Positions 9,827 through 13,142 of a stretch of 31,861 bases of DNA are shown here, in pieces. The position numbers and the translations under genes were made by a program. The notes below the pieces were generated by a model. That model did not search any database. It was not told where the DNA came from and saw only the letters and a list, made by a program, of their open reading frames with translations. The stretch's first letter is position 1. Each line of letters opens with the position of its first letter. The stretch lies in the IMG/VR virus record IMGVR_UViG_3300034682_000392, positions 1 through 31,861 of that record. The stretch is one strand, 5' to 3'. The DNA comes from a virus.

Positions 9827-9848
9827 AATGTATCTAGCGTCAGGAACG

Positions 9849-9869
9849 ACCCGCTTCGGCGGGTTTTTT
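9849..9869 (+). terminator. Terminator at the end of the early operon
   Basis: A 6-bp GC-rich stem with UUCG loop (9849-9854 with 9859-9864) is followed directly by TTTTTATT. It ends early rightward transcription 23 bases after the last accessory gene. Confidence 0.88.
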
Positions 9870-10141
9870 ATTGCCTGAAATTCGTGAGAACCATCAAATA
9901 TTTTACGATTTCTTAAATTATTTTCAGCGCGAACCCGTCACGACAAAACCACAACACCACAACAACACCCAAACAAAACTGCTATGTCATGCAATCCAAG
10001 CAGCGATGCGCCTTTGCGCCCTATCGCTGCCTTGTTCGTAAAAGACTCGGCAAGTCCGTAGTGATGCGTGACAGTCACGCTAATGCATTAAAATGTCACG
10101 CTGTTTTGTTCTCTTTGGGTGGTTTTGTTCACGATGGGTGA
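9870..10141. other. Intergenic region with palindromes; no gene seen
   Basis: About 270 bases without a convincing gene. It contains a C/A-rich stretch (about 9940-9982, repeated ACAACACC-like units) and a 15-base perfect palindrome centred on 10073 (GCGTGAC A GTCACGC). A second GTCACGCTG half-copy lies at 10095-10103. A GTGAC-T-GTCACGCTG match also occurs at 1155-1169. These could be binding sites for a regulator or partition/replication factor. An open frame on the minus strand at 10129-10413 opposes the holin and is not supported. Confidence 0.4.
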
Positions 10142-10177
10142 TTGTTTTGCCGTGTCACTCGGTATATGATTTCTGTC
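10142..10177 (+). promoter_or_regulatory. Predicted late promoter (PR'-like)
   Basis: TTGTTT (10142-10147) and TATGAT (10165-10170) are spaced exactly 17 bases apart, predicting a start near 10177. A strong terminator follows about 65 bases later and before the lysis genes, which is the lambda PR'-tR' arrangement. Confidence 0.5.
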
Positions 10178-10243
10178 ATGGTGGTGTAAGTACCTGAGTT
10201 GGCCGCCATTTTACGTAAGCCAGTTTTTATCCCGTTCCATTTT

Positions 10244-10282
10244 AACCCGCCGCTTGGTTCACCCCTCGGCGGGTTTTCTTTT
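10244..10282 (+). terminator. Leader terminator before lysis genes (tR'-like)
   Basis: A 9-bp perfect stem (10244-10252 with 10267-10275) with a 14-base loop is followed by TTCTTTT. It lies 15 bases before the holin start. All late genes would be silent unless an antiterminator, presumably the Q-like protein, overrides it. Confidence 0.85.
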
Positions 10283-10296
10283 ATCTGGACCTCACC

Positions 10297-11355: not shown

Positions 11356-11709
11356 ATGGAAAACCAACACCGAAAAATTAAAGGCTATCGCGAATTAAGC
11401 CAGGAAGAAATTGACCTGATGAATCGCATTAAAGCCAAAGGTGCTGAATTGTTATCGTTGCAGGCTGAACTAGCTGGGCGACTCGATACTGATTTAGTTA
11501 CTAAACGGAATGATGCTAGACGATCCATGTGTGGGTCTGAGTCTTTAACCGGAACGCCATATGATGAAAATAATGGTGGATCTGATGAATGTCACGAATT
11601 CAGACGATTTGCTGACGCCGAACCTCAGCGCTGGGCTGCTATCGGTAAGACGGATATCCAGACTGGAATCATGGCGTTAGTTCGCGCAATTGCCCAGCCA
11701 TCTGTATAA
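11356..11709 (+). CDS. acb2: Acb2/Tad1-family cyclic-nucleotide sponge (anti-CBASS/anti-Thoeris)
   Basis: A 117-residue protein. The N-terminal HRKIKGYRELSQEEIDLMNRIKAKG and C-terminal WAAIGKTDIQTGIMALVRAIAQP blocks match the helical-hairpin Acb2/Tad1 family of phage proteins. Known family behaviour: they bind and sequester cyclic di- and trinucleotides made by CBASS (and in Tad1, Thoeris signals), blocking abortive defence. Tyr11 and Lys26, the residues I recall as essential for cyclic-dinucleotide binding in the Pseudomonas phage PaMx33 protein, are at the same positions. Residues about 45-93 form a long insert between the two blocks (including Cys59, Cys79 and an Asp/Glu/Asn-rich part), so the protein is longer than the usual 90-100 residues. 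It starts 3 bases after the upstream stop. Confidence 0.85.
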   Translation: MENQHRKIKGYRELSQEEIDLMNRIKAKGAELLSLQAELAGRLDTDLVTKRNDARRSMCGSESLTGTPYDENNGGSDECHEFRRFADAEPQRWAAIGKTDIQTGIMALVRAIAQPSV

Positions 11710-11719
11710 CAAATAGTTT

Positions 11720-12252
11720 CCCATTCAATGAGTGGGCAACTATCAGCGACTTCACCGGAATCACTTTTAATATGAAGTTCGAACTCTCTGCCGGATGAGG
11801 TCGCTGATAGTTGTGTAATGCGGTGAAGGTGGTCGTCCACAACCGTATCAACTGTTAAGCCTGAAACGTAAAGACAGGCGCACAACGGGGATTGTTTTGA
11901 CAAAGATTGCTAGAGACGAAGCCCGCAATCTATTTAATGGGTGAAAGTGACGACAAGTAACCATGAGATTGGGTGATTCAAAACAATCCGCCGTTGTGTT
12001 CGTAGCACAACATTATCAGTGAATGTCCCTAAGCGGTGGCGGTCGTTGATACATCTCATGATGGACACAATAACCAATCAGTATTCAACGTAACTGATTA
12101 TCGGGAGGCACCCGACGCTGATTTCATTTTGGCCTGAATAACCGAAATGAATTCAATACTGCAACGCTCCATTACAGACGGCAGCGTCAAGGCTCTTTGA
12201 TTCAAAAACGGATGTGAGTTGAGTGTACTTGCGGGGCTTCGGCCCCGTCTTT
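11720..12252 (+). ncRNA. Candidate large ornate structured RNA (GOLLD/ROOL-like, family unknown)
   Basis: No convincing protein gene exists here, but complementary segments are dense. P1 pairs 11720-11725 with 11731-11736. P2 pairs 11737-11758 with 11791-11813 (22 bp, one bulged A). P3 is the hairpin 11829-11840. P4 pairs 11845-11852 with 12045-12052. P5 pairs 11859-11863 with 11875-11879. P6 pairs 11881-11900 with 11978-11998 (20 bp, one bulged G). P7 pairs 11904-11910 with 11925-11931. P8 pairs 12010-12014 with 12022-12026. P9 pairs 12076-12082 with 12093-12099. P10 is the hairpin 12101-12115. P11 pairs 12114-12120 with 12182-12188. P12 pairs 12123-12132 with 12142-12151. An 8-bp pairing of 11962-11969 with 12053-12060 makes a pseudoknot that would stack on P4. 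U-G wobbles in P1, P2 and P12 support the plus strand. The segment ends in an intrinsic terminator. Size and late-phage location recall GOLLD and ROOL RNAs, but I see no sequence identity to claim membership. Confidence 0.75.
12232..12252 (+). terminator. Terminator at the 3' end of the structured RNA
   Basis: A 6-bp GC stem with UUCG loop (12232-12237 with 12242-12247) is followed by TCTTT. It would define the RNA's 3' end and must be passed, by antitermination, for terminase and head genes to be expressed. Confidence 0.78.
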
Positions 12253-12572
12253 ACATAGAAAACAGCACGTTGTTAGTGATTAATCTCGCTGGTTGATCGC
12301 CATCTTCGCGCTGTCCTCTATGTGCAGACCATACCCCACCCCCCGGTCAAAAGGTACTTCCCAGAGTATTTGACCTGACGGGTCTCGGCGGCACCGGCTC
12401 CGCCGCATTTCACTGTTTTAAAACTGGTCCCTTCTCCCAATGCGATCCAGAAGGGACTGCTCCCGTGGAACATGCGCCACGTCTGAATTTCTGCCAATTT
12501 TCAGAGGTGGGATGATCGCCAGAAAAGTAGGGAGTTTTACAAGATCCTTTTAGATCGTCAGGAGTCCTTTCT
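12253..12572. other. Intergenic region before terminase; probable cos/packaging site
   Basis: About 320 bases without a supported gene, just upstream of the Nu1-like small terminase, where lambdoid phages carry cos. Visible elements are a C-run (12333-12344), an inverted repeat (GGTCAAA at 12345-12351 with TTTGACC at 12369-12375), and a GC-rich hairpin (CGGCGG at 12386-12391 with CCGCCG at 12400-12405). A repeated GATC-containing AT-rich part (about 12541-12558) precedes the gene. The exact cut site cannot be read. Confidence 0.45.
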
Positions 12573-13142
12573 ATGGGGGTGCAACTTAACCGCCAACAGT
12601 TCGCTGATCTGCTCGGCAAATCCCCCAAATGGATTGGTGAACTCATTAAAAAAGGGTTGCCCGTTGAAAGCGGGGGCGGTCGAGGGACACAGCTCGTCAT
12701 CGATAGTGAAAAAGCGATCACCTGGTTGATTGACTATGAAGTTAATCGGCAAGTGGGGGCAGCATTAGATGCCAACATGCCACAACAAGGCACGATTGAA
12801 GGCGAAGAGCTGTTACTCACGATGGCAAAACGCCGTAAGGCATGGGTTGAAGCGGATAAAGCAGAAGACATCGTAGTCGTAAAAGAAGAGGCCGCTCAAT
12901 TTTTTTATGAAGTCTCAACGGTATTCGCCTCCGAACTGGATGGCTTTGGCTCTCGGCTTGCCTCGGAGTTAGCAACTATTGATGATCCAGCCACCATTAA
13001 ACACATCATTTTCGCTGAATCCCGTCGTGTCCGGGCTGCGACGGCAGACCGACTCACGCAGTTCCATGCTGAGTATTCTGGAAAACGGGATACAGATCAT
13101 AGCGGCGAAACCGCCGAGGAATGCGGCGGAATGGGCGACTGA
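12573..13142 (+). CDS. Terminase small subunit, Nu1-like
   Basis: A 189-residue DNA-packaging protein. The N-terminal winged-helix part (LNRQQFADLLGKSPKWIGELIKKGLPVESGGGRG) matches lambda Nu1, which binds cos sites. Then come an acidic helical region and a C-terminal part that would contact the large subunit. Start ATG 12573 has AGGAG about 9 bases upstream. It overlaps the large-subunit gene by 77 bases in another frame. It recognises phage DNA and recruits the terminase motor. Confidence 0.88.
   Translation: MGVQLNRQQFADLLGKSPKWIGELIKKGLPVESGGGRGTQLVIDSEKAITWLIDYEVNRQVGAALDANMPQQGTIEGEELLLTMAKRRKAWVEADKAEDIVVVKEEAAQFFYEVSTVFASELDGFGSRLASELATIDDPATIKHIIFAESRRVRAATADRLTQFHAEYSGKRDTDHSGETAEECGGMGD

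Follow-up and report, generated by a model that had tools for sequence, protein, structure and literature searches.

The window analysed here, a 31,861-nt stretch of viral DNA (IMG/VR record IMGVR_UViG_3300034682_000392), contains a 533-nt non-coding and strongly folded RNA on the plus strand (11720-12252), between acb2 and terS. The upstream neighbor is an acb2-like anti-CBASS gene (11356-11709, plus strand; Pfam PF24729, Acb2_Tad1_hairpin, 1.2e-18), and the downstream one is terS, encoding a Nu1-like terminase small subunit (12573-13142, plus strand; Pfam PF07471, phrog_57). An earlier note on this DNA had named an anti-CBASS gene and a terminase as neighbors with no credible gene between them, and both points are borne out. 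From the acb2 stop (11709) to terS (12573), the plus strand has no open reading frame of at least 50 residues, and the two minus-strand frames that reach into the RNA region (11625-11903 and 11669-11851) were matched to nothing. A DNA similarity search with the whole RNA returned nothing in phages or E. coli, and a tRNA search of the 31.9-kb window found none. Elsewhere in the window, a gap of ~470 nt ahead of the lysis genes (9827-10296) holds only short or minus-strand open reading frames and is possibly the late promoter and leader. In two acb2 relatives (L043, 1854-2022; L110, 2513-2688), a long gap upstream of the gene contains the Pseudomonadales-1 RNA (RF03046).

The region folds with a z-score of -5.8 on the plus strand vs. 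-3.7 on the minus strand and no shuffle folds equally well, so the plus strand is favored. The earlier description of a large structured RNA with a plus-strand preference thus stands, the structure being far beyond chance. Two long helices dominate the 5′ part. Long helix 1 (11736-11758/11791-11814, spanning 11736-11814) has a CAAC/GUUG base and a single bulge at A11795, and long helix 2, termed P_L (11880-11900/11978-11999, spanning 11880-11999), has a CACAAC/GUUGUG base and a single bulge at G11990. Their scores are 20.6 and 19.3, whereas dinucleotide-shuffling these 533 nt 200 times gave at most 14.5 for the best helix and 12.3 for the second best; the two single-bulge helices of 20-22 bp claimed before were correctly placed and lie outside all 200 shuffles.

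Each long helix belongs to a unit of the same plan, in which a hairpin is followed by CAAC or CACAAC, the one-bulge helix of 20-22 bp, and GUUGUG. In unit 1, these are hairpin hp1 at the 5′ end (CCCAUUC/GAGUGGG; 11720-11736), which is present in both the minimum-free-energy and centroid structures and refolds alone, then CAAC, long helix 1, and GUUGUG at 11810-11815. Unit 2 comprises hairpin hpX (GCCUG/CAGGC; 11859-11879), GCACAAC directly 3′ of it, P_L, and GUUGUG at 11993-11998. Each unit has a further CACAAC 3′ of its helix (11838-11843 in unit 1, 12006-12011 in unit 2) with which GUUGUG could pair instead. For unit 2, this alternative is a local hairpin, GUUGUG-UUCGUAG-CACAAC (11993-12011; -8.2 kcal/mol alone), that is mutually exclusive with the base of P_L. 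The co-occurrence of three CACAAC and two GTTGTG motifs in 533 nt was reproduced in none of 200 shuffles. No close homolog of unit 1, with its long helix 1, was found.

The 3′ core of the RNA is a conserved module (12015-12122, plus strand) comprising a closing helix P1 (12015-12021/12116-12122), hairpin A with loop CUAAGCG (12025-12040), a P3/P4 pseudoknot, and the invariant hairpin B (UCGGG-AGGCA-CCCGA; 12101-12115). The 3′ strand of P3 (CGUUGA/UCAACG; 12044-12049/12085-12090) lies within the loop closed by P4 (12076-12082/12093-12099). Further 3′ are an AU-rich hairpin (12123-12152; -9.1 kcal/mol alone) and a UUCG-capped GC hairpin with a short U-tract (12230-12252; -13.6 kcal/mol), which may mark the 3′ end. 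The earlier note had called the latter a terminator: the hairpin is real, but a scan for intrinsic terminators did not accept it and found none past the module, where the first GC hairpin, after ~110 nt, has a short U-tract. There is likewise no σ70 promoter-like site before helix P1 in the window.

At gathering cut-offs, Rfam gave no match to the window RNA. In a permissive search, run before any motif was chosen, the best match was RF02076 (STnc100; 12017-12120, plus strand; E=0.026), centered on hairpin CGGGAGGCACCCG, at 20.8 bits against a gathering cut-off of 47 bits. STnc100 belongs to the prophage sRNAs of Enterobacteriaceae, and a recent preprint connects it with PasD, another such sRNA, which was detected by Hfq RIL-seq and northern blot (PMC13192938). 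STnc100 copies are expressed in EHEC, for which eleven are listed and one was verified by northern blot (PMC5331693). The module shares with STnc100/PasD helix P1, GUGAAU, hairpin A with a CUAWGCG loop, and hairpin B, on the same strand and in the same order. Thus, while the absence of an Rfam identity at gathering cut-offs was rightly noted, a class without relatives is not what we find: the module itself is of a known kind, the STnc100/PasD prophage sRNAs. The Rfam models of GOLLD and ROOL, to which the earlier note had likened this RNA in size, complexity, and late-phage position while recognizing no identity, gave no match at gathering cut-offs nor up to E=10, and these and other Rfam families were ruled out as its identity for lack of a covariance-model match. 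The T4 stable RNAs rnaC and rnaD were also rejected as relatives, as neither of our module models (below) matches the T4 tRNA region.

To define the module, loci were collected by pattern scans for hairpin CGGGAGGCACCCG in viral contigs, which revealed a common fold, and a wider pattern (GTGAAT-CTAWGCG-CGGGAGGCACC) gave at least 120 stretches. Alignment A2 holds 16 lambdoid copies and A3 holds 24 of the wider-pattern stretches; the window is in neither, and models R1 and R2 were built from module alignments without it. In A2, 95.2% of cells are paired and 13 pairs are changed on both sides, and in A3 the values are 97.9% and 9, with none of 500 shuffles as good in either case; helix P1 and hairpin A covary in both. 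R1 finds the window module with 27.4 bits (E=4.7e-5) and R2 with 61.1 bits (E=1.9e-12) and zero non-standard pairs. Hairpins A and B contributed letters to the collecting patterns, which makes the constancy of these letters and part of the E-values circular; this does not touch the first Rfam match, helix P1, the long helix, or the pairing of P3/P4. In the window, helix P1 and hairpin A are both formed with all pairs standard, and when the module is folded alone, P1, hairpin A, P4, and hairpin B form.

The pseudoknot is a property of the family. The segment that follows hairpin A tends to find its reverse complement in the loop of P4, just before hairpin B: among 60 distinct copies, the P3 strand inside the loop pairs over a mean of 5.4 bp vs. 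3.2 bp when shuffled (0 of 200 sets), and the window shares this arrangement with the collected copies, its P3/P4 pairing alone giving p=0.02. In the lambdoid group A2, P3 precedes P4 and there is no knot. The printed consensus of RF02076 differs in having no pseudoknot. A long-range helix proposed earlier (11845-11852/12045-12052) matches in its letters but overlaps the family-conserved P3, which leaves it as no more than an alternative pairing, and we reject it as the main state. The 8-bp pairing that accompanied it as a pseudoknot (11962-11969/12053-12060) survives insofar as its letters are complementary and it is compatible with P3. Of the copies scanned, only a few (L114 and L208) reached the RF02076 cut-off; the lambdoid GAGGTG group and the scanned extended forms were not among them. 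Tandem STnc100-type modules occur in L250, L254, L278, L296, L318, L366, and L367, with a terminator between the copies in L250 and L367.

These data also bear on whether the region might fold only as DNA and yield no RNA, as with secondary structure at a replication or packaging site. Terminase relatives (L005-L010 and L039, among others) conserve a stretch between the RNA and terS (about 12330-12470) that is probably the cos or packaging region, so a candidate for such structure does lie just downstream. It is, however, separate from the RNA, and the strand preference, the compensatory changes in RNA-type pairs including G-U, and the expressed homologs argue against an artefact, which we regard as very improbable.

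Most collected copies of the module resemble autonomous sRNA genes, in which the module is preceded by a σ70-like promoter (TTGACC...TAAATT) ending ~9 nt upstream and has a terminator ~45-60 nt past it. Other copies form a second set, marked instead by a helix of 16-21 bp that is nearly perfect, has a CACAAC/GUUGUG base or close to it, and nearly always abuts the module. Members are phages P1, phiES15, ST64B, and Sal3 and the loci L307, L315, L317, L343, L389, L391, L393, L443, and L445. The CACAAC/GUUGUG clamp together with one early defect in the helix occurs in 11 loci, and a P_L-like clamp with a single early defect is seen in P1, phiES15, ST64B, Sal3, L307, L343, L389, L317, and L315. The letters of the long helix vary while pairing is kept, as from ATGAAGCACACTCC/GGAGTGTGCTTCAT in L343 to ATGAAGCGCATTTC/GGAATGCGCTTCAT in phiES15. 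Hence the notion of an orphan class is not sustained for the long-helix domain either, which has relatives in P1, phiES15, ST64B, and Sal3.

The full order seen in unit 2, namely a hairpin or tRNA, CACAAC, a helix with one early defect, GUUGUG, and the module, is shared with P1, phiES15, ST64B, Sal3, L307, L343, L389, L393, and L443. At the position of hpX, hairpins with different paired sequence are found in L307, L393, L343, and L443, and L389 has a tRNA-Thr in its place; we considered that hpX may be a degenerate tRNA. In local alignment, the hpX region is not significantly similar to that of L343 on sequence alone (94 of 1000 shuffles as good), and higher-scoring matches to L377 and L266 were set aside because they make no structural sense. 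There are also differences. In P1 and its kin the helix abuts the module, whereas 16 nt separate them in the window; most P1-type relatives apparently have a single unit, whereas the window has two; and genome positions vary. In P1, ST64B, and phiES15, GUUGUG can instead pair with the 3′ side of an extended helix P1. ST64B (L447) carries a second unit of CACAAC, long helix, and GTTTTGTG after the module, and arrays of clamped units thus also exist outside the window. In phage P1 (NC_005856, about 70003-70201) the RNA is unannotated. There, two genes annotated on the minus strand, plp and upl, cover the region from tRNA-Thr to the module (L446, 68900-70900) and may be spurious open reading frames lying across the RNA's 5′ part.

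The long helix and the promoter tend to exclude each other. By a strict measure, a σ70-like promoter at helix P1 is found in none of 14 copies with the long helix vs. 33 of 71 without it (Fisher p=6e-4), the promoter test being a crude consensus score with thresholds chosen after a first version, with a looser measure of the long helix, had shown no significant exclusion (p=0.17). The window module, too, departs from STnc100 in falling below the Rfam cut-off, in having no promoter at helix P1, and in being embedded in an RNA of ~0.5 kb with two long helices in front.

One could suppose that the module alone matters, as an Hfq-binding, base-pairing sRNA, and that the 5′ half is an unrelated folded leader or repeat carried along. 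The module is indeed far more conserved than the 5′ half, and PasD is bound by Hfq (PMC13192938). Yet drift does not produce two helices of 20-22 bp that share their clamp motifs, and the combination of clamp and helix recurs ahead of modules in unrelated phages, which makes this explanation quite unlikely.

The setting of the RNA in its genome is not a conserved one. A search with TerS through the viral and genome collections returned no relatives. Among the scanned loci of terminase relatives, the stretch just upstream of terS is shared but the RNA is not, none of these loci having the module, and the only scanned acb2 relative with a module (L114) has it ~2 kb from its acb2. The position between acb2 and terS therefore reflects no conserved association; the late-operon site proposed earlier is true of this window but is not kept in the scanned acb2 or terminase relatives. 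In other genomes, the module follows tRNA genes or lies close to early recombination genes. This variation weighs on the idea that the RNA is a cis-acting element of the late transcript, controlling terminase expression through antitermination or readthrough or as a barrier of mRNA stability. Its place inside the late operon directly before terS, with a GC hairpin after it, would suit such an element, as would the phiES15 and ST64B copies lying ahead of early genes. But positions range widely (after tRNAs, early, and late), the scanned terminase relatives lack the module, and the autonomous copies with their own promoter and terminator yield a discrete RNA. We consider a cis-acting role unlikely.

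With exact-pattern sampling, module cores were found in 8 of 395 genomes in the order of Raoultella, and a class-level sample with a stricter pattern gave none in 369 genomes. Because one genome per species under-samples prophages, these figures establish no more than that the module resides mainly in Enterobacterales phages.

Larger relatives are found in the Ackermannviridae. In Salmonella phage P46FS4 (L239, 8020-9250), the module lies inside an unannotated region of ~1.2 kb that neighbors tRNA genes and has a folding energy of -477 kcal/mol. Related regions occur across the family (including L450-L453); the ~1.2-kb query matched 603 records, a number that overstates the spread because its first ~75 nt also match many Felix O1-like phages. 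Segments of this RNA such as CCAGCCTCGTTTGGTCCGAGCG are nearly invariant across genera. A fully compensated helix is present in P46FS4, KpS110, and FEC14, as from GCAAAGTAGAGT/ACTCTACTTTGC in P46FS4 to ACAAATCGAAGT/ACTTCGATTTGT in KpS110. The RNAs of P46FS4, KpS110, and UPM 2146 thus resemble that of the window in having the module, which all three contain, and a fully compensated helix of ~20 bp, but the Ackermannviridae RNA is much larger, its conserved flanks are not shared with the window, and some members lack the module. In the aligned regions of FEC14 and LIMEstone1 the module is missing while the flanking segments remain, so it behaves as a separable domain. Two lambdoid prophages (L139, 5890-6520; L144, 9264-9910) have RNAs of 630-650 nt between tRNA genes and a terminator, with z-scores of -7.1 and -5.5.

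Such large forms lend substance to the main rival explanation, in which the whole RNA of ~0.5 kb is the functional unit and works intact in late infection as an RNA-only or RNP assembly, like GOLLD and ROOL; the module would be its conserved 3′ domain and the long helices its structural arms. GOLLD and ROOL have a variable 5′ part and a tRNA neighborhood, and GOLLD a conserved 3′ part (PMC12286853). The window RNA is like them in size, complexity, phage origin, and its variable 5′ and conserved 3′ parts, tRNA neighbors are frequent among its related copies, and in Ackermannviridae the module sits within a conserved, folded RNA of ~1.2 kb. Unlike them, it has no match to either covariance model and no tRNA in the window. 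The separability of the module, which exists as an autonomous sRNA and is lost from FEC14 and LIMEstone1 with the flanks kept, also speaks against an obligate whole. We therefore consider an intact assembly rather improbable.

The reading that we prefer, and give somewhat better than an even chance, is that the region is a large structured ncRNA, an embedded and extended form of STnc100/PasD that is freed by processing to act in trans. The module, without a promoter of its own here, would be transcribed as part of the late operon. Helices of about two turns are known substrates of RNase III. Judging from helix length, the two long helices could be RNase III-type excision stems at which the module is cut from the longer transcript, and they may do for embedded copies what the promoter next to helix P1 does for autonomous ones. 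Before cutting, GUUGUG would be paired with the upstream CACAAC; afterwards, it could re-pair with the downstream CACAAC and so lock the mature end, or, in P1, ST64B, and phiES15, with the 3′ side of helix P1. Once freed, the RNA would work in trans, either as a compact sRNA or as an RNP scaffold, the role assumed for STnc100 and PasD.

A broader proposal, which we rate slightly below even, is that these RNAs form an undescribed class of widespread, large, modular phage RNAs with an STnc100-type pseudoknotted core, ranging over lambdoid, P1-like, Ackermannviridae, and VP882-related phages. The clamped helices would serve as a processing switch or as multimer arms, and STnc100/PasD would be the smallest autonomous members. 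In the open literature searched, we found no description of the large form with clamped helices, of the pseudoknot, or of the occurrence in P1 and Ackermannviridae.

The analysis thus links an RNA that had stood as an orphan with a family of prophage sRNAs that is known but still unexplained. That family, STnc100, gains a conserved pseudoknot that is absent from Rfam's model, and a revision of RF02076 to include P3/P4 would catch more copies. The core of the family is built into large unannotated RNAs of classical phages such as P1 and of the Ackermannviridae. The split between helix and promoter amounts to a concrete, falsifiable model of processing, and since laboratory E. coli supports the growth of P1, the question of what such large phage RNAs do, posed ever since GOLLD, can now be put to a direct test.
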